64,000 nt of DNA. Source: Branchiostoma lanceolatum (Eukaryota > Chordata > Leptocardii > Amphioxiformes > Branchiostomatidae). The position numbers and the translations under genes are program-made. The number at the start of each line of letters is the position of its first letter. Position 1 is the first letter of the stretch. Positions 25,761 to 49,431 of this stretch are shown piece by piece. The notes below the pieces were generated by a model. The model did not search any database and had not been told where the DNA came from. It saw only the letters and a list, made by a program, of their open reading frames with translations. The stretch spans positions 11,785,501 through 11,849,500 of the forward strand of contig NC_089726.1 in assembly GCF_035083965.1 (NCBI RefSeq), given 5' to 3'.

Positions 25761-28613
25761 TCACGTCTCAAGTCCCTTTCTGAGCTCCGTCCCCAGGAAG
25801 ACGTGAAACATGTGTACACCATGTTCTATGGTGGGCAGGTACCGCCCTACGTCATAGGCAGAGGACGACAGTCCCTTCTGTACACTCTCACAGATGCCAT
25901 TATCCTCCTTCTGGACCTGGTCACTGTCCTTCAAACTCGTCTCCACAAACCCCGCCAGCTCCTTGTCGCTGGTGTTCTTGACGAAGTCTTCCTCTAAGAA
26001 GTAGTCCATGACTATCCGTGTCCGGTCGGCGGCCAGGGGGAGGAGCAGGTTCGTGTCCAGCCACGGGCCGTAGCGGTTAACGGCGAGGTTCGGGAAGACG
26101 TTTGCTACGATGTACCCCGCCTGGCCGTAACGCTGGCCCTCTGTAGACTGCTCGTTGTCCTTCACTCCTAGACCGGTCTGGTGGAAGAAAAACGGTATAA
26201 AAAAGGTAAGAGTTTTGAATGAATGTCAATACATTTATATAGCATTCGTGTACTATCTATGACGTTACATATTCATAAATCAAATGTCATCGAGATAGTT
26301 ATTTCGCGAATACATACTATAATGGTGAAGAGTATCAGAGGTATTCGTAATTTATGTCTGTAGATGTCCAATACTGAAGAATGAATGTGGGTATGAACAA
26401 TAAGTTTCTATCCAACATTCCGTACCATTTTGCTGTATAGTTCGGTTGCTTCCACCTTGGTGGAGGGCAAGTCTACGATCTTGGCCAGATATTTGTGAAC
26501 ATACTCCACATGTGAATTGTGGTCCTGTGCATTCTCCACCAATAATTTCCAGTTACACCTGTAGGCACAGATACTATAATTCAGTGCATCTAGACAAAGT
26601 AACAGGTAGCAATATGGTATAACATGTAATGACAATCCAAGCAACATTAAATACAGACGCGCCCCCAATCTTCTGAATTTGGTACTGCAAGTCACGCAAC
26701 GAAGCTGTACAGCATACATGTACAACAGACAGTGAGAGAGTTGTAGTATTAGTGGAAGGGCGCTACATATTGTTACATCCCATTGATATTCAACTTGAAG
26801 AGATATACATGGATCTTGCAAGTAGAAATAGTGTTTAAGTGAGCCAAACCTTTCGATTACTAACGATTATAGTATCAATACTTGTTAATGAAACGTAATC
26901 AACATTTAACGCACTTGGTGTCATAAACGCGCCGACAAATGTGCCTCATCCCATGTGCGAAGCCCCGAGTGTCGAGTTGCTGTAGTAACGGTGACGTTAT
27001 CCCCTCGAAGTCTCCCCTGCCGTCTCCCTCCAGCTGCATCAGCACTACCGGGCCCCACGTCCTCACCGCTACGGGCTTCAGGCCGTTCTCTCGCGCAGAG
27101 AAGTTCTTTATGCCGCGGAGCCGCAGAGCTTTCGACAACCTGTGGATGGAAGTAGGGCTTGATTACAAACAACGACGACGACAATATGCTAACAACAAAC
27201 AAACAACCAAACGAACAAGTAAACAGAAGAAGAATTGAGGAAAAGGGAATCTCAGTTGTACCGCATGTATACGACAAACGGACTGATCTAACAAAGACGT
27301 TTTGTGAGCCACTTTATTTCAACTAGGCCACCATTTACCAATCGTCCAATCATCATTGGTCTAATTTCAGTACAAAGAGAATGAGAAGTGTCTAACCTGC
27401 CGTCCAGCCTGTATGTCCATCCATGGTAGCAGCAGGTGAAGAGTTGAGCCTGCCCCTCCTCCTGCTGCACCACGATGTTAGCCCGATGGCGGCACACGTT
27501 ATAGAAGGCCCGCAGCTGGTCAGAGTGGTCTCGCACCACCACAAACGGGTCATTTCCAAGTACACCTATGAGGAAATACTAGTAAACGAGATTTGTATAG
27601 ATGGATCATGGCCAAAAATGTTCCGGCCATCCGAGAAGGAATGCGTGCATTTTAAACAAGACTACTAAAGGTCTTGCTACATATCTGTCTACGTAGTCAT
27701 GGATCCAACGTGGCATTGTTCTTTTTGTCATGATAAAGTTATCATTCTTGTGGCATTATTTCTACAAACCTGTGAAGAACTGTCCAGGTCTCGCTACTTG
27801 ATCAGCCACGCCCACGGCTACCCAGTTCCGCCGGAACACCGTTCTCATTTCCAGGTCGTACAGACGTTCATCTGTGTACCTGCAACAACATTTCCCTTTA
27901 ACTTGAAAATTGACGATTAAAAAACTTCAATCCAATGATGGAACCCTGACGTAAGACTAAGTTTAGTTCTTGTTCAAAAGTGCCATCTAGCGGCATAGTT
28001 TGAATGTGCAGCACACAACTAACTTCGAACCCTGACCCGAGGAGCAGTTTGTTGTTTTCACTGACGAATGTGACGATGTATGCATGCATGGTTATATTCA
28101 GACTGACAACGACGAGGTACAACCAAGGCACACAATTTTAGTCAACCAGTAGCATTGTGTACGTTTGCTGTGTGCTACATGATCTCCGTTCGTGGCAGAA
28201 AATAACCCCCTCTTGCAAAATGTTCTTTACCCCGCCATCTTGTAGGGTAAACAGTGGCTTTATCATGTGTAAAAAGGTCCCCATGCTTACAGTTGCGTTA
28301 TAGGAGTGATCGTCTTTTATTTCAAAAGCTGCTTATATTGTCCTGTTTTAAAAATCAGGAGAAGATATTATGGTCGCTGTCGGGAAGTTGAGCTATATTT
28401 TCCTTACCAGCTAGCAGGAGGCGTGGTGGCTTCGTCAATAGGGGTTTCCAAACAGAACTTGTGAACCTCCGTGGTCACAGAGGAACCCGTGGTGGACAGA
28501 GGCTTGGTGAACACCTGTAGGAAGGGTGTCAAGACTGGAGGAAGACGTTTCACGAAAGTACTGCCAATTCTGTACAACCCTGCCATGATGGCACGGTCCC
28601 CGGACAGAGTCAT
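25761..28613 (-). CDS. Rieske non-heme iron oxygenase, choline-monooxygenase-like, mitochondrial-type N terminus
   Basis: Exons in coding order: 28408-28613, 27770-27879, 27397-27565, 26915-27139, 26426-26558, 25761-26177; 419 aa. The first exon encodes a basic, amphipathic start (MAGLYRIGSTFVKRLPP), which suggests mitochondrial import. The Rieske centre is C130-x-H132 and C150-x2-H153 (CRHR, CCYHGWTY). The catalytic iron motif is ENAQDHNSHVEYVH, with D249 as the bridging residue and H253 and H258 as ligands; the third ligand is probably the Asp in QKEDNGICES. The Ring_hydroxyl_A C-terminal half includes ANVFPNLAVNRYGPW and SSSAYDVGRYLP. The layout and motifs resemble plant choline monooxygenase, which makes betaine aldehyde from choline. 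Most animals use choline dehydrogenase instead, so the substrate here is uncertain. It is not of the Neverland or CMAH type. Confidence 0.9.
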
Positions 28614-29563: not shown

Positions 29564-31128
29564 TTAGAAGCCTAGTTGTTTGTGGAGGATGGGCACGTAG
29601 TCGTCATACTGGGACTGGAACAGGTTTCCCGCCACGGGCGCGCCCAGGTTGTACTTCTTGGCGAAGTCACGAGCGCTAAACTTCCCCCTGGAAAGGGAAA
29701 AAAAACGACTGTAAGATACACTTAGACTTAGTGATGAACATGTCATCTCTTGTCTTCATGATTTCACGAGAAAAATATTTCACGATAATTGAATAACAAA
29801 GCACTATGTTAGGACCTGACTGAAGTAGAGAAAAGACATGTTATGTTTACCTGTGTTCCCCGGAGGTGTTGGTAAGTTTGGGCTCGCTGTCACAAGAGAT
29901 CTTACCGGGCTGCTTGTACACCAGATAGACGTAACGGTGCAGGCCTGGGGTGGAAAGAGGTGAAGTAAATTTAGTGTATGACACTTCAGTATGCAATCAA
30001 TGTCTACTAGTTAACGTTATATATATATAGCTATATGATGTTGAAACTTGAATTGAAAATTCTATCGCACAAAGACATACAAGCTTTCTCAATGCCCTGT
30101 TCTGTATCCTCAGACATTGAACTTACCTGTGTCCTTAGGTGGCCCCGCCCCAACGAACTGAGACAGCTCCTCACCCTTACTGACGTCATTTCCGGGGATG
30201 TTGGCCACCAGCCAATGGTGCCACTCTCTGTATTCCGGGTTGGCACGGCTGGGCGCGTCAGGATCTGAAACCGTCAAAGTCATCGCACAGTTAGGCAAAG
30301 CTGTGTTACTGCATGTCTTGACTGAGAAGAGGGCTAGAGCGTCATCGAAACTGAAACTCTACCACGCAGATGACTGAGAAGTCACAAGACAAGCCTGAAG
30401 AAAGAGGAACTCAATATGCAGTTGACTCGCATGATACTTTCACTTCGAACCTTAATGCTGGCGACTTTTACCACCCTTCCCCCAACAGACATCCCCCATT
30501 CTGTCTCATACTGTCACTCCCAGCTTTTTGCCCAATCTATTCTGCTGTCATCCTCCCTCATTCCTCTGTGACCACTAACGTTAGCTTTCCCATTCTGCTG
30601 TTCAATTCCCCCTATCTTCTCTCACATGCAATTCTTCCAACACTACCAGCCCTTCTAGTCAATTTATAAACGGGCGAGGGGAGGTAACGCTACCCACCTG
30701 TTAGAATGAGAGTGTAGAACGCTCCCGGTTCGCTGTCCCACTTCAGAACCGTGGGCTTGTCCTTCACCTACGATATACAGAAAGAAAAAACCTGTATCAC
30801 AATTCAGCGTTCTTCAATTCTAAGCAATGGTGTCGTGTTTTACAATGCAAGGACTCAAGTGCAGTATCACATTTGAATCGAAAGGAAACAATCTCGTACC
30901 TGGGTTGGAGTCAGCTCGTTCCCAAGGTCCACCGTCTGCCCTCCATACTGAACCTGTTAAAAGAAACTTGCTCGGTCAGTCAGAAATCCCCACCGGTACA
31001 ATTTACAAAAATGTTTGCAACCAGTAAGTCAACATGTACTTGATTAGTATATATAGTCATTTTCCTACCTCCAAAACGCCCTTCGGTGCCGCGTCTATCA
31101 CATCTGGTACTACACCGTGCTTCTCCAT
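29564..31128 (-). CDS. phosphatidylethanolamine-binding protein (PEBP/RKIP family)
   Basis: Exons in coding order: 31069-31128, 30900-30953, 30698-30767, 30127-30264, 29851-29944, 29564-29687; 179 aa, close to human PEBP1 (187 aa). The ligand-binding signatures are [23 protein letters not shown] and [12 protein letters not shown], and the C terminus [17 protein letters not shown] is family-typical. The protein has no signal peptide, so it is presumably cytosolic. PEBPs bind phospholipid head groups and can act on kinase signalling; which role holds here is unknown. All introns are GT-AG and the phases agree. Confidence 0.95.
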
Positions 31129-32826: not shown

Positions 32827-35800
32827 TTAAGATTTTAAGTTCAGGAGATTGGTAGTTGAGAATGCTAGAGAGTTAGCCGTATCATCGGTACCACCGACGA
32901 CCGCCACCTGCGGGGAAGCGCCGATGTCCGAGTCGTCGTCCTGGGCATGCGCCACGACTCCCGCCAGGCCTGACGCGACGTCCCGGACGACGTCGACGCG
33001 AGTTCGCGCCGCGTTGGTGGACCCGTAGTGACGGCGTGGGGTGCTGTTGTTACGTCTTCCCGCCGAACCGCTTCTGCCGTGACGCCGACGAACGGAGTCG
33101 AAGATACCGATGACTTGTGCCCTGGGCACGATGCCGACCCGAAAGAAGCCGAGCTCACCCTCGTCAATCTTCGCACAGTTCACGACCGTCGAGGCGACGT
33201 TCTCGGGTGATGGCCCATCACACAGTACTCCGTCCACCTACGGGTTAATGACAACAAAACCACAGGAGTCTTTATTGATGAATTGCGCAAGAGCACAAAC
33301 ACTTTCTCTGGAAAAAATGACGCTTTTTGCCTTTTCTGTTCTTCACTGCTGTATTTGTGAGCCTGAAGTAAAAATAATGTACAAATAGAAAGTTGCAATA
33401 ATAACTTTTTGCACTCACGTTGTCTCCGAGCTTGGCCCGCACCTGCGAGTGGTGCGTGGTGTCTGCCTCCCCGGACGGGTTAGCGGAGGTCACGGCGATC
33501 GGCCCCACCAGGTCAATCAGGTGGGTGGCGACCGTGCAGTCTGGGATGCGGATGGCGATGCTCTCAGGGGTGCCGATGTAGCGGGCGGAGTCTCCCAGCC
33601 CAAACCTGTCCAGCCACGGACCTGGAAGGCACAAATAGTAGTTCTCAACAATAGGAGGCAATGTGTCCTAGACGATAAAAGACTCGTTGTATTACCGAAA
33701 AATTCTTGGATTATCCATGAACACCTGTTATAGATTTAATTCACGTTAACTTTGGAAACTATCTATATGGGGTTTACATGGAAACGTACCTCTCTTGATA
33801 ACGAGGCTGATGGAGGACGGCCACACCTCCTTCATGAAGTCCCACAGGAGCGGTCCGAACTCCTCCCTGGCTAGCTCCAGCTGACTCAACTGTAACAAAG
33901 GAGATCGAACTTTATTTAGTAAGTGTTTCTTCCCTATTCAGCAATCATATGATAACGTTTTGTTAATCATGTTTGATACATCTACAAAGACCCGAAATGC
34001 CTGTGCTCACCTGTGAGATCCATATGGACATGGGTCTCTCCTCCGCTTGTTTCTTGGTGCGGTAGGCCCTCTCCACGGCGGCAGGACGGTTACAGGCCGC
34101 CACCAGCACGTACACGGTGTCTGTCGGCATGCCGCAGATCCCGCCGTCTTTCATCAGTTCTGTAAGACATGACGGGTACAGGTCATGAACAAAGGTTCTA
34201 AAGTGTCGCTGTCTTACAAAAACGCATCTTCTACAAATGTAATTCAAAAGACACTGACTAAACGATAACAATTTAGCTGCAAATCAAGAAAAGAAAAACG
34301 ATGTACCAACCTGCGATTTGTTTGACACCATTTGCCTTCCTGGCGTCCGCCATGACACACCCCTGTTCCCCACCCCTGTCGCTGCGCCCCCTCCCCAGGG
34401 TCAGGAGCGGGCTCCCCAGGGACATCACCTCCTCCCCACACATACCGTTCAGCAGGTGCACACAGAAACAGTACACGCACACCGCGCCAAACACACACAT
34501 CACCACCAGTTCAAAGTACTGACTAGTCTGGACGCCTAGCGCGTCTAACAGGAACAGCACACAAACCACCTCAAACACCACGGACAGGACAAACCACGCC
34601 TTGTTGATCACCACAGACAAGAAGATGACAAACAAATTGAAGAGAAGAAAAGATGCGGCTCCTGCCGCCACACCGAGGCCTTCACTGCCTCTATAGACTC
34701 CAGAGTACCTGACAGACCCCCACAACAGCCACATCATGCTGTACACCATGAACGCCGTGCTCTCGAACGTCTTCCCGCGGGAGAAGCTGATGGTTCCCGC
34801 CACAAACTGGATGACTCCTCCCGGCACGATCACCCAGGGGAGGACCAGAGACTTGTTCCCGGTAGACAACAGTGCCACAGCTAGAGCTGTCACGGCATTG
34901 GATAGAAATCCCAGCGTGTCCGCGCTGGCGTACTTCGAGTAGCCGAGAATTTCGTTTGACGTGGAAACATTATCAGTGGTTGAGCTGGACGGTAAACTCT
35001 CATAGCCCTGCCGAGCACATCGGCAGCGGGAGAAGAGCCCTCGCAACGACTCCTGGGGTAGAAGACTCCTCCCGACGGGTACTAGAGTTCTCCGAAAAGC
35101 AGAGTTCAGCGCCAAAGCAAACGTACAGTAAAGGGAGATCAACAGTAACAAAATACTGGCAATACCGAGATAGGTACTGTTCAATCCTGTAGTGGGAAGG
35201 GAAAGGACCAGAATGGCAAAGCAGAGGTTGTAGACCACATCAGAGATGGTTTGGGTGAAGGAAAGAAGGAAGAAGACAAGGAAGATGAGAACGAGAATGG
35301 ATGAAGCTAGGAAAGGAGGTGCCAGCTCGGCCTTCCCCCACAGCGTACTGAGGAAGCCATAGGTTATTCCCAGCCAGAATGTGCTGGACAAGGAGAACAC
35401 AGCCCCGTGGAACACGTCCTCTCGTCTGAAGGACACAACAGAAACCAGTAGCTGGGCAAGGCCCGCTAGCGCCATCCACGGCGTTGCCTGATTAACAGAA
35501 CGGGTAGCGCCTACGAAGAACAGCGCTAGTACACAGGTAGGAATCATATTCATAGTATATGCAAACGACAGGACATCGTTCTTGACGACTTGGTCATCTT
35601 CTTCGTCTGTCTCTTGTCTTTTATTTCTCATACCAGGCAGACTTACACCGTTACCTGTGCAGTGCGACACTGTCAAACCAACGACGTAGTAAAGCCCCAG
35701 TAACACAGGCAGTGCCTGATAGCAGGCTGCGCCCCATCTTCCCGCCGGATAGAACAAGGCTACAATCTCCATAACCATGGAAAAACTAAGCAGAAAACAG

Positions 35801-36435
35801 ATCCAGCTGACAATGCTACTCTCTTTCGTAGCCGCGATCCCCAGAAAAAGGGTGAGGAACAGAAAGACGCCATAGCCTGGGAGCAGGCCGTCTCTACGGT
35901 TGTCCAGGGATAAGATGTCTAACACCTCCAGGATTTTGGCGGACCCCAGGGAGCCCCAGAGTACCGACAGGGACAGGTACAGGGTGGTCAGGGTGTGGCA
36001 TCGTCCACGGAGCAGTCGGACACCTGTAAAGGCACAGATGCAAATGGAGTGAAAGAACTACATGTGACTGATCGATACTAAGAAGCTAATGATAACACAG
36101 CAAATATTCAAACATCTATCAAATAACCCTTATCTGGTGACAGCGACTGGGAAGTCCCCGAAGAGTTTGTACTGAAAGGGACATAACTAAGCAATGTTTC
36201 CAACTGTGACCCAGGACCACCCAGATGCGTTATGTGTCTTACCTGCGGAAAACTGCAGCAGGCCCGTGATGACCAGTACAGTCCCGGTGATGAGGCTGTT
36301 GGGCGCCGCTACAGTCAGGTCCAGACTGAAATTGTGGGCGGCCAACACCAGGCTACCCAACACCACTCCCGACATGCCCTGCACGCGGGGACCCACGGGA
36401 ACGGCCGTGACCCTGCCGTTGTTTCGAGTAGGCAT
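32827..36435 (-). CDS. fusion protein A: three SatP/YaaH-like membrane repeats plus YrdC domain
   Basis: Exons in coding order: 36243-36435, 34311-36023, 34011-34159, 33790-33889, 33419-33621, 32827-33237; 922 aa. Three repeats of about 170 residues (near 18-186, 214-385, 431-600) each have about six membrane segments. They echo the acetate/succinate channel family GPR1/FUN34/YaaH (SatP): GLAQLLVSVVSFRREDVFHG, STFWLGI and FRRTLVPVG in repeat 2, TLGFLSNAV and GGVIQFVAGTISFSRGKTFE in repeat 3. Residues about 628-830 form a YrdC/TsaC domain (PTDTVY at 647-652, GPIAVTSANPSGE, ASTVVN). The large exon 2 runs unbroken from the membrane repeats into the first YrdC residues (ANGVKQIA), so the fusion is real. 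The KxR motif reads KKQ. The last 90 residues are Arg/Ser-rich. Function unknown; proposals are inference. Confidence 0.85.
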
Positions 36436-36589
36436 CTGTTGTACAACATATACATGGTATCAGAAGACTATCTACCGAACGTACAAAGTCTGGCTATATA
36501 CGCAGCATGTTGTCATTCTTCAAACAGAGAAAAATCGAATCCGATGTCAATTGTGAATCATGCGGGATTTAGTTTGGTGGGACTGAATT

Positions 36590-36660
36590 AGCCTGGGCAC
36601 CGTCCTTGTTGGTCCCCATACTCGCTCACTCACAAACTAACTAGGATGGCACCCAGGCTA
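36590..36660. mobile_element. 71-bp hairpin element, AGCCTGGGTGCCATCCT ends
   Basis: AGCCTGGGCACCGTCCT at the left pairs with AGGATGGCACCCAGGCT at the right with three mismatches. A related end is near 22603. It is a very short MITE or hairpin. Confidence 0.5.
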
Positions 36661-37055
36661 CTTCTGAATTAGAATTACAATCTTTGTGCCAGAACAGGAC
36701 ATGTAGTAGGCCATCTTGGCCATATTTTGCGTGAAACACCACAAAAGTAGTAGCTCGGTTTTGCTGTGGGTTTGCTGAACAAGAGGCCAAGTCGAAAATT
36801 ACAATATACATACCCAACCTTCCCTGTTGACGTAGCAAATTTAACATAAATCATATACAAGATAGGCATGGGCATGTTCCTGTTTGTAGTCGCCAGTCTT
36901 CAGAAAATTGAGACCGTGCGCATTTGAGATCTTATGCCATTGAATTTGTCTCACCTTGAAGACGAAGTCACCTTTTCGACACGTCTGGCGTAGCTCTTGG
37001 TGGAATGACACTATACCAGAGGTAGGGCCGGGCTGTGTGTGTTATGCCAAAAACA

Positions 37056-37310
37056 CCGTGACACAGAATAATAACTGACGGGGAAGTCCAATGACCTACG
37101 GTGTTTTCCTCAACTTAGTTCGTGTTTCACCATCTTGTGATCGAAACCAAACATGCGCTGTCCATAAATACGCCCGGCTGTTGAGCATGTGCCAAGTGCG
37201 GCTCTTTCACTTTTGAGAGGCCTTCTCAGAACCGTGAAAGGGGAAGTGAAACTCTGGGGGAGTAAGATAAGGTATTACAACATAGTCAGCAGAAAATCAC
37301 GAGGTATTTT
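37056..37310. repeat. dispersed repeat, copy 1
   Basis: Segments such as CTGACGGGGAAGTCC, GGTGTTTTCCT and AAATCACGAG recur in the same order at 39222-39420, inside the last intron of fusion gene B. It is non-coding and diverged. Confidence 0.55.
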
Positions 37311-37502
37311 TGTAAATAGGCATGTCATAACAAATTGTTTGCTTTAGTCAGTCGTTTGCAGTATATCCAAAGGCAAACCTGTAAATATGGTGTGTCTATC
37401 AGACAGCACTTTCGACTTCGACATAAGGTCGGGTTCATGTATACAAGAATTATATCCCGTCTACAGTTTCCAAATGTTGTGTCGGAAAATACATCGTATG
37501 TA

Positions 37503-37742
37503 AAGCCCCTGTCACACTTGTGCATATATACAAGTCCGCATGGGTTGCGTATTAACATGTTTTTGTTTTAGGTCAAGTTTGCAGCCGAATAAGTAATTTC
37601 TTAGGTTCGATCACTAGGCTGCACAACGGTGGGTCAAAGTAGAAAACAACTTTTTCCCCGCAAACCTTACTTAAACCCAAAAAAATGTCAATGCGCAACT
37701 CACGCGCACTTGAATATATGCACAAGTGTGACAGGGCCCTAA
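37503..37742. mobile_element. MITE with GCCCCTGTCACACTTGTGC termini, TAA flanks
   Basis: The left end GCCCCTGTCACACTTGTGCA then TATATACAAGT has its reverse complement at about 37690-37738. The inner arm (GGGTTGCGTATTAACATG) pairs too, giving arms of about 60 bp. TAA flanks both sides, the target duplication typical of PIF/Harbinger elements. No transposase. Confidence 0.6.
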
Positions 37743-38379
37743 CGGACGAAATTCTGATGCAAGGTTGACCAAACATCCAACAGAAACCGTGATGAATTCT
37801 ATAGTAACTACAAGACGACAACTCCTGTACATGACTGATAATTAACATTGCAGCTGAGGTACCATGTTAGTCTAGGGTTAAAAGGTGCTGGTTGACTTTG
37901 CCACTAGTTATTGATGAATATAAAAACGATTCCTCAGCCAGGCTGATCGTCAGGAGTCCCGCGTATGCACATCACGTGCAGTGCTTTATTAGACCGTTAA
38001 ATGTTTAAAGTCGTCAGACAAAAAAGGGATAAACCAGTAATGATGGTAAGGGATGTACACAGATCTACAGATCTACCTTTGGGCCAACAGCTCGAGCAAC
38101 GACATTTCTTCACTGTTTGTATTTGTATTAAAGACACTAAAGATTTGAGAATACTTTTGTGTGTGTTTGATTATACCATTCCAGAAAGGAACAGGCAACG
38201 AATGTGGTTTTCAGCATGTTGTAATATGTCTGCAGCGTGTTTGGCCCATAGTCAAGAGCTCGAGCTTTATGAATACGCTTTTATGTTAGGTCATGTGTGT
38301 ATTTGTATTGTGTTTGATTTTGACCATAAGGACCAACGGAAATAATTAAAGCTACCACACAATTTCAAATGTAACATAC

Positions 38380-38385
38380 TTTATT
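38380..38385 (-). terminator. poly(A) signal candidate, fusion gene B
   Basis: AATAAA on the minus strand about 415 bp after the fusion gene B stop codon. Confidence 0.45.
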
Positions 38386-38799
38386 CTATTGTGACAAAAT
38401 GACAAATTCAACAAGGTTGCAGCAAGACTTTCATTGCGACAGGTAACTTGTGATGATATGTATAAATAATTATTTATATAATATAAAACGCCAGTGTTCT
38501 ATAACATAAAGCACACGTATACAAAAACTGTCATAACATAAGGTACATAAAATACCGATGTGCAGTTTTTTTACTATTCATTACAATCAACATGACACCG
38601 ATATATACGTAAACACCAATCTTGACGACATATTCTTCAAGATGAGTGACCGTGGAACTTACATGCACAAACTAGCCTATCGGCTTGGCTAACCACCAAA
38701 TAACACACAATTAGTCACCTTCCTTCAGGGCACAATACAAATTTATAAATATTTCTAAACAGCTACAAGAATATGTCCTAATCTTCAGGCTCGTTCTAT

Positions 38800-41700
38800 C
38801 TAACTGGAGTTGATGGACGCTTCGAACTGCGCATGCTCGACCGCTTCCTTGGCCTGTGCGAAGAGCTGCTCCACCCGTTCCCGAGGAGTGCAGCCCACCC
38901 TGAAGAACGAGATGCCGACTGGAACGGGAGGGAAAACAACAGTTAGTACAGCATAACCATTAACGGGTGGTTTAGGCAGCATCTTATTGGTGTCATTAGA
39001 CTCGGTAATGCGTGACAGCAAAACAGCTCTTGCTCAAAGCAAAATGTTGATACAGCAATACAGCCCTTCTATTGAGTCATATACTAGTAATGGTGCAAAC
39101 CACACAAAACACTTACCAAACACTGATATTTGTTTGCTAACATATGTACAGCCTTGAAGGCAAAAGATCTTAAGATACGATACAACTGACAATGTCAGCA
39201 CTATGCATAGATTGGGTTACCGTAAATACTGTGACACATAATCATAACCGACGGGGAACTCCGCTGTACGTAGGTGTTTTCCTTAAGTTCGCTAATGCTT
39301 CAACGACTTGTGACCGAAAGTAAACATACCCAGTTAATATTATAAAACACACGAGATTTAGGGCTTCTAAGAACCGTCTAAAGGGGAAGTACAGATCACG
39401 TAAAAATCACGAGATGCCCTTGTGCCAAAAAAACGCCTACAACGTATTGATTTTCCTTGATAGATTTGGCGCCCACCTTCGTCTATCTTCATGCAGTTGA
39501 CGACGGTGGACGCGACCAGCTCGTTGGAGGGTCCGTCGCACAGCATGCCGTCTATCTTGTCTCCCAGGGAGGACAGCACCATGTCGTGATGGGTGGAGTC
39601 AGGCTCCCCGCTCGGGTTAGCTGACGTGATGCCAAGGGGTCCTGTGGGTATTCAAAGAACCAACTTGATTCCAACCTCTGTGATATGACAGCAACATTTC
39701 ACTTTCAGACTACATGTTATTTTTTCACTCTTAGAAAGCAGGTAACCCATGCTTTTCACAAAGGTAAAGCCATGTTCTCATTCTATACATTAAGAAACTT
39801 TTATTAGATGCCATGAAAGCTTGTTCGACTATTTCACCCCCTCCCCACTGCTGTACCCACCTGTCATGGACACCAGGTGGGCGGTGGCCGTGCTGTCAGG
39901 TACCCGGATGCAGATGCTGTCACTCGTGCCGATGTAACTCACAGCATCACCCAGACCTGCACATGCGCATATTATGAGATATCATTTGTAAGCAGTAGCA
40001 GCATGAAGTGCTGACAAATAATTTACATAAAGGTATGCTTGCTTGTGCCTTGAAACTAGGGACTGTCTATAGCACATATACAATACATCATGTGCTGTTA
40101 TCATATAAAGAGGTTTCCTATATGTATCTCTTCAATGGAGAACCTACCGAGGTTGGCGAGCCATTCGCCTTTGGGCACCACGCAGCTGATGCCGCCGGGG
40201 TAACAGCGGCGCATGAAGTCCCACAGCAGCGGGCTGAAGTCAGGCCCTGCCGCCTCCAGCTGACCCAGGTGGGAGATACACACACAGATAGGCTTCTCAG
40301 CGGGGCGACTCTGGGTGGGCAGGGTGTGTAATGGCTGATGTTAGTATAGAGTTCAACTTCAACCTTTGGGCACAACGCACCGTATGTACACGGCGTACCA
40401 AAAAGGGCATGTGTACTTGTGATATCAAGAAACAAACTTTTTCTAATGTCATCTTGTGGTTGAAACAAAAGGTGTGATTATGGATAAAGGTTGGGACTAC
40501 CTTGGAGGATGTGCATCTCAGTCACTTTTAGGAAAGGATGCCTTTGAGGCTTAGACCAGGGAGGTTATTAAAATAACCTCCTTGCTTAGACCAAGGGTAC
40601 TTGTATCATCGGTGCATCTCACCTTGACGTGGTAGATACGTTTGATGGCCTCTGGATGTTTACAGGAGGCGGCCAGGGCGTACACGGTGTCGGTGGGGAT
40701 GCCGCACACCCCGCCAGCGTCCAGGACATCCGCGATGGTCCGCAGCCCACTCGTCTTCTTGGAGGAGGGCGTGGGGATGGTCAGCTGGCCGGTACCGGGG
40801 TCATCCTCGGTGTCAATGTTTATCTGTGTGTGTGAAGAGAATGGAATAAACATTGGCATTCATATATTGCTGATAAAATTGTGATTATATCCACCAGCTC
40901 TCGGAACAAATCTCTTCCTTTCTTAGTAACTCTCTCTACCCAATTCATTCATTCATTCCTTCCTTTCCTCCTCCCTTAACCCCTCTTTCCCCATTGCTAT
41001 ATTTCAATTACAGGTAAGGTATGAATTGTACTGAGAACATTGGCGTTATTACTCGTCAAAAGAACTTTATGATACAACCACAGGTGAAGACACGGTACTA
41101 AAGACGTACCTGCCAGATAGGACCGCGCCCCGGTAACACGTCCACACCTATCACCGCCGCCAGGAGTGCCGCTCCCGCCCCGTACAGGCACACCACCCCG
41201 AGCAGACCCAGGAACGCCTCCGCTAGATGGGAGGGGAGCTTGTCCAGGGTGAAGAGCAGCAGGCAGACCTGTACAACCTCCATCAGCACTGTGGTCACCA
41301 ACCATATCTGGAGGAAACAGTGTGTGATGACCAGTCAGTATGACAGCTGTATATTGTATATAACACATTGAGAATATGTAGTAGGGACCGTGTAAGACGC
41401 ATTTCTCAAAAGTGGTTGAAAGATGATATGGTCATGTATGAAAATGTCATAAGTTTTGGAATTAATGTATGACTAGATCACCACACAAATCGCTTCTTTA
41501 CCTTGCTTACAAAACACGAGGACACCATGCTGCCAAGGTTGATGACCATTAGGACGATTACCCCGACTAGCAGGCTGTCTTGATGATCGCCTAGCGGGTT
41601 GTTTTGGAAAATGTATCCTGAAAAACGAAATGAATTGAAAGTATAAGACATTAAAATTGTTCCCTGTGCTCGATAAGATATTATGTATCACAAAGAAAAC

Positions 41701-43859
41701 AATAAAAAAATTCTAAATCCTCAAAACGTCACAATTAATTATAAACCAACAGGGCAAGTGGCATCTTTAAGAACAAGTGTCGTACCTGAGAACCTCACGA
41801 GTGTCCAGACCCCCCACATCAAGGCACTTGCTATGTACACCATCCCGGCTGGCTTTGCAGTCTTCTTGACCTTCAGTGACAGCAATGCAGACAGCAGCTG
41901 TACCAGAATCCCAGCTCCAACAATCCAGGCCATGTGCACAGCAGCTATGCCGACAGCATTGCCGGACAGCGCTGCCCAAGCCGCGACAGCATTACTGAGA
42001 AAAGCCAGGGTGTCGGAACTACCCTCCCTGCACACGTCGTCTGCGTCCTTCGCACTGCTGGTCTCGCGGGCTGGTCGGCAACATCTAACCTTCTTAAAAC
42101 CTTCACGGAGTGTTGTCATGGCGACCAACCGTGAGCCAACCCACATGATGGGCTTCTCCGCGACGGAGTTGATGAGGTTTGCGAAGGAGGAGTACAGAGA
42201 GAGGACGGACAGAGCGGCGCACAGGGCGCCTACAGCGTACTTAGCTCCCGCTAGGGGGATCACAGAGAACCACGCCACGGACAGTAGAGCGAAGACCAGG
42301 TTGTTGACTAGTGTCACTTTGTCCTTGGTGAGTGAGACCAGGACAAGGAGTACGAATGTAGGAAGGAAAGCCCACGTGCCTAGCAGAGGGGACCGAACAT
42401 CATGGTTTCCACCTGTCAGACTGTGGGCGGCTAACCCCGCGGCCTGGCAGAGCCAGAACGTAGCCTGAGAACCGAACATGATGCAGTGAAAGGCGTCATT
42501 CCGTAAGAAGGAGTAGTAAGAGGCGATGATGAGAGAAACCAAGGCGAGACCAACCCATGGTGTGGCGGCGGGAAAAGACACGGTAAAACCGAGGTAGTGG
42601 AAAGCAAAGATGGCGGCTACAGGGACGTTACTGAGATACCCTAGTCCCATGGGCTCGGCGTATTTGGTGTTTTTCTTTTTCTCTTCTTCCTTTGATCTGT
42701 TTTGTGATGTGCCGGCCCTTGTGCCAAACAGTAACACGTTGAACGGTGCGTTACCAAAACCCGGGATAACCCATCGCTGGAAAACCCCCTTCAGCAGTAA
42801 TGCTGTAGCCCCGTACAGAGCTATTAGAACTAAAACAATTTCTAAAGCGAAAGCTACTTTCTTTCCCCAGCCGTAGTACAGCCCAACAGTTTCAAAGGAA
42901 AGCAATATAGCGGCAGTGAGGGCGACAGGTGGCATGATGTAGTTGGTGGTTGCTGACGTCACAGATAACACTAGGGCTACGCATGCGTACGAGACTAGGC
43001 CAGGGAGGGTTGCGCTGATGACGGCCGCGGTAGACGAAGTGGCTTCCAGGATCCTCAAAACCCCCATGCTGCTCCAGAGGGCGGCGAAGGTGACGAAGGC
43101 GGTGGCGGCCAGGTGGTCGTACTTTCGGAAACTGAGCAGGCCGGCAACTAGTTGGACGAACCCGCCGATAACTATCAGGTGTACACCTGCATTGGACGGA
43201 GGGACACAACATAGGACAACGTTTAACACACGCAATGAACAACGCATGAAGAACATTTACACAGTCTGTATCGGTTATGATTCTTTGCATGGAAATTTGA
43301 CATACAAAAGAAAAGGGTTGAACACAGGTCAGGCGAGTTGCGACGGTCATTCTGACAGGCGACTAGTTAGTCATTTACACATGGTCACAGTTTTCAGTTA
43401 TGGGCTGTACACAGCACTTGCAATTGGCAGTTACTTAGTTGCACATAAAACATAGTATTGTTAAAATAAAGCCAGGCACTGGTTGAAAGAGGGGAATTAT
43501 AGATTACTTTCTGTCAATGAAAAGCGGTGATTCCCCTTTACAAACGCAAGCCAGTACACGTCCTACGAAACTAAAACTACTTCGATATATTGAGTCTACA
43601 CACTCCATGATTAAGTCCAAACGTTGTATTGATTCTTTCACGCTTGTGATCATGAACTGTTACAGTATGCAAACAAAAGCGTGCGGCTACGTCCTACACA
43701 CGACTGACCTGTGATGACCGTGCCGGCCACGGTCTGCTCGGCGGGGTCTATCATGTTCCCCACCGCCGCGAGGAAGGCCGACAGTACGTTAGCCAGGAAG
43801 CCCAACACTCCCGGCTCGCTGTAGAACACGGCCGCGAACTCCTTCTCTTCCCAACCCAT
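38800..43859 (-). CDS. fusion protein B: three SatP/YaaH-like membrane repeats plus YrdC domain
   Basis: Exons in coding order: 43709-43859, 41786-43186, 41502-41617, 41110-41307, 40623-40823, 40148-40310, 39861-39956, 39477-39641, 38800-38918; 869 aa. It is the upstream tandem paralogue of protein A, in the same orientation. Repeat 1 starts VLGFLANVLSAFLAAVGN and has GGFVQLVAGLLSFRKYDHLA; repeat 2 starts MGLGYLSNVPVAAIFAF; repeat 3 starts TLAFLSNAVAAWAALSGN. Together about 18 membrane helices reach residue 620. The YrdC domain (about 645-850) has PTDTVYAL, an intact KxR motif (K689-S690-R691, SRPAEKP), ITSANPSGE, STVVN and a FFRVG close. YrdC/TsaC enzymes make threonylcarbamoyl-AMP from threonine, bicarbonate and ATP for tRNA t6A. 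Whether this one does is unknown. No mitochondrial presequence is seen. Confidence 0.87.
39222..39420. repeat. dispersed repeat, copy 2 (intron of fusion gene B)
   Basis: Diverged direct copy of 37056-37310, sharing CCGACGGGGAA, AGGTGTTTTCCT and AAAATCACGAGAT in order. Confidence 0.5.
40556..40584. repeat. GAGGTTATT hairpin in a fusion gene B intron
   Basis: GGGAGGTTATTAAAATAACC, then TCC, has the same arms as the palindromes at 847-929. It is an intronic copy of that hairpin family. Confidence 0.55.
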
Positions 43860-44445
43860 CGCAACCGGCTAGGGAGGAAATAATATTAAGTCATTAAAGA
43901 TTCGACGGAAAGCAGTTATTTCTGACTGTTGTTTATGGAGCAAAAAGAGCAAACACTATCTGGAGCCGAAACGGTCTGTCGACCACATGCTTACTCGTAC
44001 TTAACAACGTTCAGTGGAAATTCCATAAACTGTTGACTAATTCTATCAATGCTGCCCCATTCAACATCACAATTTCTTTTATACAACCGGAAAGATCGTC
44101 CATTTCTTTGATCAGCGTGAGAATTGCGCCGTTGAACATGTCTGATAGGTAAACCGGTATCAGCGAAAACTAGATATGTTACATTAGATATTAAACGAAC
44201 CCACCTGTACTTCAGTTGAACAGGTGTGTTCTTTCTCGTCTATCGTTGACTTCCCGACGATTCACAGTGGTCGCTATCTGGAGTGTCTTACAACTTGTAA
44301 AGAGACAACACGCTTCGACTCTAGCTTTGAGTGTGACGGGCGAAACTATGACACAGGCGCTTGTGGGGGTTTTGTTACCGCCTGACCAGAATTAGAAGTG
44401 AGGTCATGTAGTCATGGGGACGCCGCACTGAGCTAACTTTGGGTT

Positions 44446-44841
44446 TGTCACCTGGTGACATATGATTATGCTAAGGTCGACATATGATATTTCCGGGTGT
44501 GGGTCAGGCATATCCTTCTTGGTCTTTGTACAGGTGGTGACATAGGGGAAACCCACCTTCACATATGTTGATGTTTGCTTCCTTGTCAGCAAAGGGTAGA
44601 CGTAGTTGAGAGTTCGCTCTTGTTTAAACCAAACCCAGTATTCCTTTGCAACGTGTCAAATACAAAAGCGCAAAATGCAGTCTGACATACACGCAACTGC
44701 CATGTATGAACAAGTTGCTATATATATTGTACCTGTTACAATTGTCGCACAACAAAGTTCTTCTACTGTAGTACATACCTGTGTGAATAATCTGATCATT
44801 TTCTCAGAGGTGGACAGGTAAACACTACGTCACCTGGTGAC
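44446..44841. repeat. two E-box-centred palindromes
   Basis: TGTCACCTGGTGACA at 44446-44460 and GTCACCTGGTGAC at 44829-44841, each followed within 10 bp by TTATGATT or TATGATTA. Each holds CACCTG on both strands. They may be regulatory E-boxes or paired ends of a decayed element. Confidence 0.4.
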
Positions 44842-45896
44842 ACGTCTTATGATTCTTCCTTGATTTTCTTCCCTGTGACGTTTGTTTGTAATTGTGTGTA
44901 TATTGCTGGGAAAAAAGTGAGTCTACTTGTTGTCACGCACACACGTCACTCATCATGACGTGTGTGTGTGTCTTTATCTGTATTTCAGGGAAAAAAGTGA
45001 GTCTTCTTATTGTCATTCCTTCTGACGTACAGTGTGGTTTGATCTTCAAATGAGCCAGGTAAATATAACCGCCACACCTTGAGATGTTCATATGTCTTTA
45101 CTTCCTTCCGTACGCTATCTATTTTGGGCACTTTCGTCCCTCCCTGTGACGCATGAGGAAATGTCTCACAGTAAAAACGTGAGCACGTAACTCGATTATT
45201 AAGTAACCAAGTAACCAACGCCTTCTCCGGTTCGATCTAGTCAATCCAAGTGTAAATTTCTGTCCAGAACTTTAACAAAGAAAGACATGAAAAGTTAAAG
45301 CAAATGGTCATATGTTGGATCTAGGATGGCAGCAGATGAATTCGATATTTTGCGTATGGCAAAAAAATACAGCAAGTCTGAGCATGTATGTCCCACCCTG
45401 ACGTGAAAAAAAGCATGTGACTACTCATACCCCACACAATCAGAGAGGGCACACGGTTTCGATCAGCTGAGTCTCTCGAGACCTGCTTATGAGAAAGTTT
45501 CAGTTTCAGACGGAAGTTGTGATGTGCAGACGAGAGGCAATATCCATAGACGCTGTGAAATGAGGTGCTGTTTTTTCAGTACAGGACGGCATATTCGTCT
45601 GTAATTATATCGACTACAGGAGAAATCGCGCGTGGCCCCATGAAACACAGGGATATCGACGGAAAGGAGAGGGGCTTGCCCTGACAAACAATGACAAATT
45701 AAATCAGGTGGCTTCTCGGTATGCTGCATGTAACCTGTAACAACACAGCGTTGACACGCGCCGTTCATTAGACACCGCTGACTGAAATGCACCAATCACA
45801 GACCTTCTCACGTACTCCTACCAGCTAACTGCGCATGTGCAGCAGCATATGATTATCACAGGAAAGGGTTTCAGAAGATGATGTCACTTTGTCTTG

Positions 45897-45910
45897 GTAA
45901 CCATGGTAAC
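45897..45910. promoter_or_regulatory. X-box-like motif upstream of ACOD1
   Basis: GTAACCATGGTAAC, 163 bp before the ACOD1 start codon, has one perfect RFX half site and one weaker one. A role is only suggested. Confidence 0.4.
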
Positions 45911-46072
45911 GTGTGGGGGAAACTTTCTGACAATAGAAGTTGGCTCCTAAATATAGCAATGATCGCAGTGTTCTGCGATATAAATACTGTTCATGTCGCC
46001 ACTGTACAAAGCCTTTTAGACATCCACGCCGCTAGTTACGTTTCGTTTACTTCTGAACATTGTGTTACAAAA

Positions 46073-49000
46073 ATGGCCAGATTTCTGAATCTTAGGGCAA
46101 GTGCTGTTAAATATATGGTGAGCGTGTTTTTACTCCACGTGCAGTAGCGTGTTCTTGATTTTATTTTGGTCAGGAAAATACTGGACAATCTGTTATATTT
46201 GTCTCGTAGCACTAATAAAATGTTCCTAGCCCTGTATGTGGTTCTAATGATTTGTATTTGACTTGAACTTGCCCACAGCTGACGGATTGCCGGGGTTTCA
46301 CCACGGCCTCGGACGGCGCCGGAACACTTCAGCAGAGATGGGCGCCCGCTGGCCGGCCGGGCAGGGCGCTGGCCGTCCCCATGGTGGGGGAGCGGGTCAT
46401 GCACGGATTCCCCGCACCAGCGCCAGTCGGTAAGGATGCAGATCCTTTATTCTCTTCAGCTTGAAATTGTACAATGAATTTTGCTGTTGTAGTTGACTTT
46501 TCTGATATAACAATGTGAACGGGACCGTCCAGAGTGTAAGAATTTGGTGTTGGTGGGGTGCTAGGTTTGTTTTCACACGTCTGAACTTTATTTATTTCCC
46601 GTTAGACCCTGACACGAACAGTGAGGGCGCCACGGCGCACACGGCAGACTATGTAGCCAGCACGTCCTTCTCGGACCTGTCCCCGGTGGTACTCCGCAGG
46701 TGTAAGAGGATGATCCTGGACACCCTGGGGGTCACGGTGGTCGGCTCCACTACCGAGGTGGCCGGCATGGTGGCGGCGTACAGTCTGGCGCAGCAGGTGG
46801 GGAAAAACTTAGAATATACATGTATGAAAATATGGCTAAGCAAGTTTTCTAGAATGATGTGAATGATCGGTCAGTATAGGGTTATCAGAGGTCAAGAGCT
46901 ATTGTAGTTCAGTTTCAGACGCCATAAACTGTTAGTGGTGCGTCTACGATCTATTGAGGTACCTTTGACGACATAATTTACAAAACACTCATGCCTGGAC
47001 TTATATTTTTTTCCGCAGGGCGTTAGACCAGAGCCCGCAGGCTCTTGTGCTCTGCTGGGGCGGAAGGACCGTTCCACGTCCGCGCCGCTCGCCGCCTTCG
47101 CTAACGGAGTCAGCGCGCACTCCATGGACTTCGACGACACCTGGCACCCGGCCACGCACCCCAGCGCGCCGGTGCTGGCGTCTCTCCTGGCGCTGACCGA
47201 TCTCCTGCGACCCGTCAGCACGGTCAGCGGGCGGGAACTACTCCAGGCCTTCGCCGTGGGGATAGAGGTACAGGGCCGGCTGCTCAGGACCTCGGCACAG
47301 GCCAAGAACATCCCATGGAGGTAGGACGAGTGTTTTTGTGTAGTCAACTTTTTGTATGCGATAATTATCAACCCATCTGAAGTGTATACTTATTCATGAA
47401 CCTTAATATGTGCACGATAAGGTATCAACAAATGTTTAATTTCAAGTGTGTGACATTTTATGATCTATAGCTATTGTAAGGACTAATACATTGACGCTTG
47501 AAAATGGACACGTCCCTTTTTTTTCTTTTTTTTTTACGGACAAACGTCATTCTATTCTATTTCGTGTTTAACATGTTACGTTTGTCACAAGTTTTCTATG
47601 AGGAAACTGTGGTAAGCCGTGATATACTAGTACTTGGCTTATGTGTTCCCTTTGTGTTTGGAAGGTTCCATCCGCCCGCAGTGGTGGGGGTGATGGGTAG
47701 CGCCGCTGCGTGTGCCAAACTGCTTCAACATGATCCGACCCTCGTCCGAAATGCCCTGTCTGCTGCTGCATCGTATGCAGGTAAGCTGTCAACAATTACA
47801 CGGTTTAGGATTTGACTTTGGGCCTTTAGATTTGTACGTCAGCGTGAAGCTGCAACAGTGGGTAAAAAGGTAAAGGTAGTTCCATAGCCCTCTTGAGGCC
47901 GTAACGGCAGTGGATGGTTATCCACAGTAAGACCCATTTTACACTGGGTGGAGTGAGGACGTCCTGTAAAGTGCCTTTCCCAAGGGCACAAGATCGATAA
48001 CATGGCAGGATTAGGACCCAGGACCTCTGGGTTCTGGATCAAACACCCTGCCGTTACGCCATACGACCGACCACACGACAAAAAGAGAACGTGTGTAATT
48101 GTGTTTGAATTGTGGTTAGGACCAGGCTTCCGCATAATGCTTCCTGTTCATTGCCAACCCATTAATAAGAAGTCAACCGTAAATATGTCAGATTGTAACG
48201 TTGTAAAACACAAACAAGAACATCTTTGACATTTTCCCATCCCAGGCGCTCCGATGGCGAACGCTGGTACCACGGCCAAGCCGCTGCACGCCGGGAACGC
48301 GGCGCGGTTCGGCCTGGAGGCGGCCCTCCTGGCGTCCGCGGGGATGAAAGGGAACCCCCACATCTTAGACATGCGGAGCGGGTTCGGCGCCTTCTTCGAC
48401 GACTTCGTCCCCGAGACGTTGCAGGACTTCAACGGGGGACATCTGCTTGACAAACAGGTGAGGGCTCATAGCTGTGCTCTGTCTTTGTAGCTTAAGCTGA
48501 GTAGCGTTTGTTACCAAAGCGTCGTCGAGGCAAATTTTAACCCAGAAAAATATGCTTGTGTATTTTTGGAAGCCATACAGAGCGCCATTGAAACTATCGT
48601 GCGGGCATTCTCTTCCACTGAGCAGAAAATACGCAACTGTGACGTTTTGATACTAATGACAATTGTGGAATTTCAGGACGTGGCGATCAAGCGCTTCCCG
48701 GCACACCTGGGCACACACTGGGCCTCGGACGCCGCCGCCGAGGTGCGCGGGAAGCTGGCGCGTCACGACGGGACTGTAGACACCGACGGGATCCGCCAGG
48801 TGGTCGTCCATGCGCCCAAGTAAGTCACTGGTCCATAGACTTGTCCTCAGTCATCAGGGCAAGCTTTACAATCTTTGCTTTCCTTTCAGAAATTATGCTA
48901 TACATTTATTTGTAAGGGAGTAAAAAAAAGCACAGCCTGTCCAAGATATACACGAGTAAACATGACTAAACTTCAGTATTTCTTGACAGATGTGGTTACG

Positions 49001-49431
49001 TGAATCGCCCCATCCCGAAGTGCGAACACGAGGCTCGCCACTCCTTCCAGTTCAACGTCTGCACCACCCTGCTGGATGGGACGGTCAGCCGGCAGTCCTT
49101 CGGGCCCAACCTGCTGCATCGCCCCGAGCTCAGGAGCCTTCTCCGCCGCACGGACATCCGGCATCCCCCCGATAACGTCAAGTGCTTCGAGACCATGTAC
49201 GTGGACGTCGAGGTGCGGCTGCGTGACGGGACCGTCGTGACGTCACGCTGTACGGAGCCGTACGGCCACTGGAGACGCCCGCTGAGACAGGACGACGTCG
49301 TCGCCAAGTTTAGAGACAACGCCGAGCCAGCGCTGCCGAGTAGTGTAGTACAGGAGTGCGTAGATAAGGTAGAGAACCTAGAGAACATGAGGGACTGTTC
49401 AGAACTGACAGACATGTTGAGTCGTCCCTGA
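46073..49431 (+). CDS. ACOD1: cis-aconitate decarboxylase (immunoresponsive gene 1)
   Basis: Exons: 46073-46117, 46279-46429, 46606-46796, 47019-47320, 47665-47780, 48246-48457, 48677-48819, 48990-49431; 533 aa. It belongs to the MmgE/PrpD family and matches vertebrate ACOD1 through its length: FANGVSAHSMDFDDTWHPAT, RFHPPAVVG, AKPLHAGNAARFGLEAA, DVAIKRFPAHLGTHW, EHEARHSFQF and PYGHWRRPL. The residues known to shape the human active site are kept (Asp/Thr/His of DDTWHPATH near 168-176, His232 of FHPP, Lys280 and His283 of KPLH). The enzyme decarboxylates cis-aconitate to itaconate, an antibacterial and immune-regulating metabolite. A 65-residue N-terminal extension (MARFLNLRASAVKYM and on), longer than in mammals, looks like a mitochondrial presequence. 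Intron 5 carries a SINE. Confidence 0.94.
47859..48066 (-). mobile_element. tRNA-derived SINE in ACOD1 intron 5
   Basis: Read on the minus strand it begins TGGCGTAACGGCAGGGTG (A box at 48061-48051) and has a B-box-like GGTCCTAATCC (48018-48008), as in a tRNA-like head. A body follows with TTGTGCCCTTGGGAAAGGCA and a CCTCACTCCACCCAG block. I recall such a body from SINEs with conserved central domains in many marine animals, but this was not checked. It is diverged and non-coding. Confidence 0.65.

Follow-up and report, generated by a model that had tools for sequence, protein, structure and literature searches.

Tandem lancelet genes joining three SatP-like membrane units to a YrdC domain lie beside an ACOD1 gene and may encode a carboxylate channel tied to itaconate

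Two tandem genes of the lancelet Branchiostoma lanceolatum, genes A and B, each encode a chain of three SatP-like six-helix membrane units followed by a YrdC domain, and the next gene after B encodes a predicted cis-aconitate decarboxylase (ACOD1/IRG1). This neighbor is the best clue to the substrate of the fusion proteins, and its adjacency suggests that they serve itaconate. In our analysis the fusion is a putative transport protein, a carboxylate channel tied to itaconate with a cytosolic YrdC domain; we give this reading a probability of slightly under one half. The window was 64,000 nucleotides long (GCF_035083965.1, contig NC_089726.1, positions 11,785,501 to 11,849,500), and the positions below are counted from its first letter.

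Gene A (32827..36435, reverse strand) encodes 922 residues in six exons (36435-36243, 36023-34311, 34159-34011, 33889-33790, 33621-33419, and 33237-32827). Its second exon (34311..36023) carries the bulk of the membrane part and reaches into the YrdC fold, of which it encodes strand 1 and the larger part of helix 1. The YrdC domain of gene A, located by Pfam, alignment, and the AlphaFold model, has approximate outer limits of 33060..34355, introns included. Gene B (38800..43859, reverse strand) encodes 869 residues in nine exons (43859-43709, 43186-41786, 41617-41502, 41307-41110, 40823-40623, 40310-40148, 39956-39861, 39641-39477, and 38918-38800). Its membrane-YrdC join is interrupted by a phase-0 intron (41110/40823), and its YrdC domain lies within 38803..40778, again as approximate limits with introns. 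All 13 introns of the two splice models are GT-AG and in frame.

AlphaFold models of the relatives P0001 (for gene B) and P0121 (96% identical, for gene A) contain 18 long membrane helices and then a YrdC fold. P0001 is the deposited B. lanceolatum protein matching gene B; it is listed at 100% and has at least three substitutions in the alignments. An earlier note, made from the letters of this DNA, had described 18 helices in three SatP-like units before YrdC in both genes, gene B as a second copy of the same order, and the long gene A exon as a sign that the fusion is not a model error. The splice models, Pfam, AlphaFold, Foldseek, and profile comparisons together bear out these statements. 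The 119 further relatives of gene B among the best 120 of 293 matches are 854-984 residues long, with coverage of at least 98% in most and PF01300 in all. Six clusters (P0008, P0022, P0025, P0042, P0050, and P0119) are full-length fusions of 859-887 residues on contigs of only 2.9-3.5 kb and so probably represent spliced transcripts that cross the join. A gene-model error was ruled out by the single gene A exon across the join, the canonical introns, and the many relatives with equal length and order. One A-type product (P0134, 594 residues) stops near the start of YrdC.

Profile searches gave PF01300 (YrdC) in both genes (E 1.2e-32 in A and 6.3e-34 in B), whereas PF01184 (Gpr1/Fun34/YaaH) was found in gene A (E 3.7e-6, 27.2 bits, cut-off 25) and gene B stayed under the cut-off with 17.0 bits. 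Foldseek matched the models to SatP with target-normalised TM-scores of 0.78-0.79 (B) and 0.72-0.75 (A) at modest E-values (3e-3 to 4e-2), and, at the level of residue ranges, SatP was aligned with the first unit of gene B. Unit 3 of gene A matched 5ys3 by sequence (E 1e-4). In profile comparisons, the units matched one another with probabilities of 97% (1-2), 96% (1-3), and 98% (2-3) over 164-167 columns, and each matched SatP with 62-78%, against 0.2% for a YrdC control; therefore, all three units appear to be kin. The loop charges of gene B (29 K+R versus 3) place YrdC on the cytosolic side, and in the A-type P0121 the signal is weak (net −1 versus −2; K+R 22 versus 5).

Relatives were collected by a search with gene B (best 120 of 293) and by a search with gene A and four molluscs, the latter of poor reach, with no mollusc among the 14 returned. 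In the tree, which is midpoint-rooted and carries long-branch warnings, gene B groups with molluscs (99/95) and then with vertebrates (100/100), and gene A groups with the teleost.4-type (100/100). The family thus has two anciently separated types, A-type and B-type, represented in the lancelet by gene A and gene B.

The ACOD1 gene (46073..49431, forward strand) encodes 533 residues in eight exons (46073-46117, 46279-46429, 46606-46796, 47019-47320, 47665-47780, 48246-48457, 48677-48819, and 48990-49431). It lies head-to-head with gene B, and the 2,213 bases between the two start codons (43860..46072) may possibly form a shared control region. The product matches six PDB chains of cis-aconitate decarboxylase, which we take to be those of mouse and human, with E-values of 2e-136 to 1e-133, and it contains the N and C domains of MmgE/PrpD (PF03972 and PF19305). 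The seven active-site positions checked (D93, T97, H103, H159, K207, H277, and Y318, each one higher in the numbering of the PDB chain used) are all conserved. As judged from its sequence, the protein is a predicted cis-aconitate decarboxylase that would make itaconate. The ACOD1 reaction releases CO2.

The association extends beyond lancelets. Vertebrates have an irg1l copy of the decarboxylase gene besides the ACOD1 copy. A fusion gene shares a contig with an irg1l-clade gene in seven of nine testable vertebrate species and with an ACOD1-clade gene in none of 13 (Fisher P 2e-4); here a shared contig means an equal size of the longest contig between cluster representatives, read by eye from the lists (the counts alone were scripted), and is not the same as adjacency. 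The clusters may pool several species or homeologs, such as the Xenopus pair named S and L. Among the misses, the mismatches in Tachysurus and Scyliorhinus may reflect two assemblies, Physella has scaffolds of about 0.1 Mb, and the fusion gene of Ascaphus lies on a 0.18-Mb scaffold. Geotrypetes and Lepisosteus, which are in both lists, were left out because the ACOD side gives no contig size. In invertebrates, four of five share a contig between the fusion gene and ACOD1/irg1l, and the two genes of the snail Bradybaena carry the tags 02334 and 02338. Birds carry the fusion, and the seven bird ACODs among the 120 listed of 1094 ACOD1 relatives (P0137, P0138, P0141, P0142, P0144, P0145, and P0148) are all of the ACOD1 clade, none being irg1l; therefore, the fusion and irg1l need not co-occur.

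Expression points in the same direction. Of six papers naming the zebrafish si:ch211-153b23 genes, four co-list irg1l and two do not. In Table 2 of PMC8877790, the genes.4,.3, and.5 correlate with irg1l at r = 0.90, 0.88, and 0.86; of these,.3 and.4, and not.5, are assigned to the fusion family, by name. The three are in irg1l's top five of 62 genes, and the best gene outside the top five reaches r 0.62, in a table of preselected responding genes over 18 conditions that are not independent. The table has 66 genes; tfr1b, hbbe1.2, and fkbp5 contain missing or ND values and were excluded, so that 63 including irg1l entered the comparison. Linked genes can also be co-expressed through a neighbor effect. 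In the open-licence literature, we found no paper joining the Ato-YrdC fusion family with itaconate, which in mammals is moved by other carriers. For YrdC together with itaconate, this literature yielded a single review, on amino acids in tumours, and a review on carriers in the production of acids (PMC7419537) reportedly covers both itaconate and SatP.

The same observations bear on a rival explanation, that the fusion is a carboxylate channel for short-chain acids such as acetate, with ACOD1 as no more than an old chromosomal neighbor. Whole chromosome groups can remain linked for long times without selection, and enhancers can be common to linked genes. In addition, PMC13316224 and PMC9409672 give acetate, lactate, and succinate as known substrates of SatP and Ato proteins. 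However, we consider this explanation doubtful: the lancelet genes are head-to-head at 2.2 kb, the snail locus tags are four apart, the linkage is kept by the irg1l copy and not by ACOD1, and the fusion genes are co-induced with irg1l in inflammation.

The YrdC domains of the two types differ in their catalytic site. Foldseek matched both models to Sua5/TsaC. Gene B has an intact KxR...SxN ATP motif, all seven ATP- and threonine-site residues, and a TsaC-type threonine signature. Among the 120 listed B-type relatives (best 120 of 293), K56, R58, S143, N145, S181, and R195 are kept in all, and position 33 is Thr in 114 and Ser in six. Yeast Sua5 requires these residues for TC-AMP synthesis (PMC10321239). 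In gene A the motif is broken (KxQ), and the KxR arginine is absent from each of the 13 A-type relatives examined (Q in 12, H in one), although the threonine-site residues are kept. With its complete ATP and threonine site, B could be the substrate-fed synthase imagined in the earlier note, which is disfavored for A. The conserved B-type site would also suit a membrane-anchored TC-AMP synthase for tRNA t6A, with the SatP units as an anchor or a bicarbonate feed. We regard this as unlikely. It does not account for the A-type site, infection-type induction would be odd for a housekeeping step, and we found no placental or marsupial fusion among the 127 named of 134 listed relatives, while the t6A of such mammals is kept by the stand-alone YRDC.

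The pore has also changed. The constriction Phe and Tyr are residues that we take to be F17 and Y72 of SatP. The SatP sequence has F, Y, and L at the constriction places with a numbering offset of two. The constriction Leu is given as L131 in PMC9409672. In the 120 listed first repeats of the B-type (best 120 of 293), the Phe is replaced by Asn throughout, and the AceTr signature NPAPLGL is lost by an N to E change. The Phe position is Asn, Asp, or Ser in most repeats; at the Tyr position, 40 of 49 first repeats have Phe or Tyr, 28 of 49 second repeats have His, and 39 of 49 third repeats have Tyr, and the Leu position is variable in a gapped alignment. Because NPAPLGL is not kept, the pore may be non-conducting or may carry another substrate. 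SatP is a succinate-acetate carrier, and a relaxed constriction in Ato1 or SatP lets succinate in, as described in PMC13316224 and PMC9409672. A transceptor or sensor, in which a degenerate non-conducting pore leaves the units to bind carboxylate and YrdC to relay the signal, would fit these replacements and the A-type site with its threonine residues but without its ATP-site arginine, yet it is improbable, as animals from molluscs to vertebrates have kept all three six-helix units complete and polar Asn or Asp at the constriction should widen the pore rather than plug it, by analogy with Ato1 F98A (PMC13316224).

For the itaconate-linked channel, a mechanism can be proposed. Two chains would assemble into a ring of six units resembling the SatP hexamer, as Ghasemi et al. 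propose in PMC13316224; the two might be an A and B pair. The ring would pass small carboxylates, and its physiological job, judged from the linked ACOD1/irg1l, would involve itaconate or one of its near C4-C6 relatives, which might leave the producing cell or enter a compartment by this route. Binding of ATP, threonine, and bicarbonate to the YrdC domain may control the channel; alternatively, in the B-type, an acyl-adenylate may still be made. A wider scenario is more tentative. In it, ACOD1/irg1l and a linked channel-enzyme built from an A-type and a B-type Ato3-YrdC chain would have formed a dedicated itaconate module since at least the mollusc-chordate ancestor, the channel-enzyme exporting itaconate and sensing or using threonine, ATP, and bicarbonate, and placentals and marsupials would have lost the linked pair and come to use other carriers.

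The Ato-YrdC fusion family is widespread in animals and newly described, and in the open-licence literature we found neither a tested function nor a transport assay of any member. Linkage and co-induction with the itaconate enzyme give it a concrete candidate job. The new elements are the ACOD1 adjacency, the irg1l linkage and co-listing, the A and B types with differing catalytic sites, and the replaced constriction Phe. Should the proposal hold, zebrafish, frogs, snails, and lancelets would possess an ancient transport partner dedicated to itaconate immunity, one hidden from work on mouse and human, and tRNA modification would not be the only role of the YrdC fold.

Compared with bacterial SatP and yeast Ato1 (AceTr, PF01184), the lancelet proteins have three units per chain with NPAPLGL and the constriction Phe replaced, and gene B falls under the PF01184 cut-off. 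They differ from TsaC/Sua5 threonylcarbamoyl-AMP synthases (PF01300) in being joined to a membrane channel and in having no SUA5 domain, and the A-type differs further by KxQ or KxH. The N-terminus of lancelet ACOD1 is about 70 residues longer than in the ACOD1/IRG1 chains of the PDB and is possibly a mitochondrial presequence. The closest system is the ATO and Sua5/YciO/YrdC fusion of Ghasemi et al. (iScience, June 2026, PMC13316224), which shares with the lancelet proteins a length of about 900 residues and three Gpr1/Fun34/YaaH units followed by one C-terminal YrdC; the statement of the earlier note that no protein of this architecture had been described therefore fails. That paper describes triple-Ato fusions, of function not known, in every major vertebrate lineage except mammals, and it regards protostome sequences that fall within the vertebrate clade as possibly transferred genes. 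In contrast, the relatives listed here (best 120 of 293) include a platypus copy and eight PF01300-bearing mollusc copies. A transfer from vertebrates to molluscs is not supported, since the seven molluscs in our midpoint-rooted tree, with its long-branch warnings, lie outside the vertebrates. Relative to that description, the linkage with ACOD1 is new.

Genes A (32827..36435, minus strand, 922 aa) and B (38800..43859, minus strand, 869 aa) lie in tandem within the window and encode proteins with three SatP-like six-helix membrane units and a C-terminal YrdC/TsaC domain. B adjoins, head-to-head, a cis-aconitate decarboxylase gene (ACOD1; from 46073, plus strand), which is complete with 8 exons and 533 aa; the start codons are 2,213 bases apart. 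The ACOD1 protein contains PF03972 and PF19305 and matches six PDB chains named cis-aconitate decarboxylase (E 2e-136 to 1e-133). At seven positions, which we take to be the active site, it agrees with 120/120 relatives among the matches listed (best 120 of 1094). An N-terminal extension of ~70 residues relative to the PDB chains (46073-46620, plus strand) is possibly a mitochondrial presequence, but the case is weak because residues 1-40 include 5 K+R and 2 D+E. According to the available text of PMC13307414, the product of ACOD1 is itaconate, an antibacterial and signalling acid.

A second search for relatives, with gene A and four molluscs as the query, yielded seven Branchiostoma A-type clusters besides P0121 (96% identical to A), together with five teleost sequences (840-872 aa), of which one bears the name si:ch211-153b23.4. 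The tree separates an A-type (lancelet A and the five teleosts) from a B-type (lancelet B, molluscs, and vertebrates) with support of 100/100, and on this sequence evidence they are two ancient types. The synthesis of TC-AMP requires T33, K56, R58, S143, N145, S181, and R195 of Pa-Sua5 (PMC10321239, available text). Among the 120 B-type matches listed, the last six are kept in 120/120; position 33 has T in 114 matches and S in the other 6, and the TsaC signature position has T in 116 and S in the other 4. The A-type keeps six of the seven; R58 is replaced by Q in 12/13 relatives and by H in 1/13, and one of the 13 has M in place of the signature Thr. Gene A of the window itself has Q at R58. 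Only the B-type therefore looks catalytically complete, and the A-type looks disabled for ATP chemistry. The names of zebrafish si:ch211-153b23.3 and.4 suggest a pair like lancelet A and B. A third B. lanceolatum fusion gene outside the window (P0124) is 80% identical to A, and its contig has the same length as those of P0121 and P0001, the deposited counterpart of B. In B. belcheri, B carries locus tag 036810, A carries 036820, and a gene close to P0124 in the tree carries 036770; these suggest that the cluster extends beyond the window. An A-type product of 594 aa (P0134), on a 5.1-kb contig, ends close to the YrdC start; it may reflect intron retention or be a membrane-only form.

Among the best 120 of 1094 ACOD relatives, the vertebrate sequences form two clades: ACOD1, with at least 47 members that include the three mammals and seven birds identified by name, and irg1l, with at least 57. 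Contigs were compared for species present in both this list and the fusion lists. An irg1l copy shares a contig with a fusion gene in 7/9 species among the matches listed (Gasterosteus, Pseudophryne, Acipenser ruthenus, Bombina, Paramormyrops, Xenopus laevis, and Toxotes; not Tachysurus or Scyliorhinus), whereas an ACOD1 copy does so in 0/13 (Protopterus, Anomaloglossus, Leptodactylus, Ascaphus, Pelodytes, Rhinophrynus, Mixophyes, Gastrophryne, Pseudophryne, Discoglossus, Bombina, Arapaima, and Amia; Fisher P 2e-4). Pseudophryne and Bombina, found in both comparisons, serve as their own controls. Among the invertebrate matches listed, 4/5 share a contig: B. floridae, Lymnaea (317-kb scaffold), Biomphalaria, and Bradybaena (locus tags 02334 and 02338), but not Physella, whose scaffolds are short. 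A shared contig is not adjacency, which is seen only in the lancelet window and nearly so in Bradybaena. Conserved linkage of the fusion gene with irg1l is supported.

Co-induction of the fusion-cluster genes with irg1l is also supported; cluster gene.5 is not known to be a fusion. In the available parts of six studies naming a si:ch211-153b23 gene, irg1l is co-listed in four, all on zebrafish: the top-50 heatmap of Shigella-infected larvae (irg1l,.4, and.5, without.3), a nanoparticle study with an inflammatory module whose five leading hubs are irg1l,.3,.5, noxo1a, and zgc:100868, a list of five genes upregulated at one PFOS dose (irg1l,.4, and.5 among them), and a toxicology table (PMC8877790 Table 2). 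It is absent from the gene lists seen of a zebrafish stim2 loss study and a stickleback DNA methylation study. We computed correlations of irg1l with 62 other genes over 18 conditions from PMC8877790 Table 2, a selected set of responding genes; the best five were sult5a1 (0.91),.4 (0.90), si:ch211-207n23.2 (0.90),.3 (0.88), and.5 (0.86), the sixth reached 0.62, and the first 54 genes had a median of -0.07. Co-expression of neighbour genes can be of passive origin. In the same table, sult5a1 and si:ch211-207n23.2 track irg1l as closely as the fusion-cluster genes; the Shigella top-50 heatmap likewise contains sult5a1, as well as the PhyH-like zgc:174917. The window contains a complete five-exon gene of the PhyH (phytanoyl-CoA dioxygenase-like) family (61709-63307, plus strand), whose likeness to zgc:174917 is at the family level. 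Pieces of genes for a family 10 fucosyltransferase (311-874, plus), a Tctex-1 family protein (21179-22057, plus), a Rieske domain (27288-27578, minus), and a phosphatidylethanolamine-binding protein (30110-30358, minus) also lie in the window.

Pore residues were located by gapless alignment from the NPAPLGL motif in all 120 listed B-type matches and in the A-type; the pattern had first appeared on 49 rows. SatP Phe17 is the Phe of the FLY constriction. In the 120 B-type matches, its position is Asn in 120/120 first repeats, Asp (96), Asn (16), Ser (6), Glu (1), or a gap (1) in the second, and Asn (113) or Ser (7) in the third; Glu replaces the Asn of NPAPLGL in 120/120 first repeats. The A-type has Val/Ile, Asn (one gap), and Asn/Ser at the Phe17 position of the three repeats. 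These changes would fit a wider, polar pore, because in Ato1 the substitutions F98A and L219A loosen the constriction and let succinate through (PMC13316224, available text). The same changes break the AceTr family signature, so conduction is only a prediction. Loop charges (29 K+R inside vs 3 outside) put the YrdC domain of B on the cytosolic side; for P0121 the count is 22 vs 5, and net charge is uninformative.

The architecture and fold, the division into two types, and the adjacency of ACOD1 in the window are established. We give slightly less than even odds (about 0.48) that the fusion protein is a carboxylate channel with a job tied to itaconate. Its chains would assemble into a ring and pass carboxylates, with itaconate as the putative substrate, and the YrdC domain might act as a gate or an enzyme. 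Mammals move itaconate via MCT1/4, ABCG2, and SLC13A3 (PMC13307414, available text), so a dedicated channel is unnecessary in principle.

The earlier note knew of no described protein with this architecture. However, the available text of Ghasemi et al. (iScience, 22 June 2026; PMC13316224) already reports vertebrate proteins of ~900 aa with three Gpr1/Fun34/YaaH units and a C-terminal Sua5/YrdC domain, and suggests for them a SatP-like six-unit ring from two chains; the architecture is therefore not new. Among the matches listed (best 120 of 293), the domain order of B recurs in sharks, lampreys, ray-finned fish, lungfish, amphibians, reptiles, birds, platypus, and molluscs. Two points of that account, as far as its text is available, need amending: its statement "except mammals", since the platypus sequence (P0120) is a mammalian copy, and its treatment of protostome copies in the vertebrate clade as possible gene transfer, since at least 8 molluscs among the matches listed have the YrdC-bearing form, and the seven in the tree, which is subject to long-branch warnings, fall outside the vertebrate clade.
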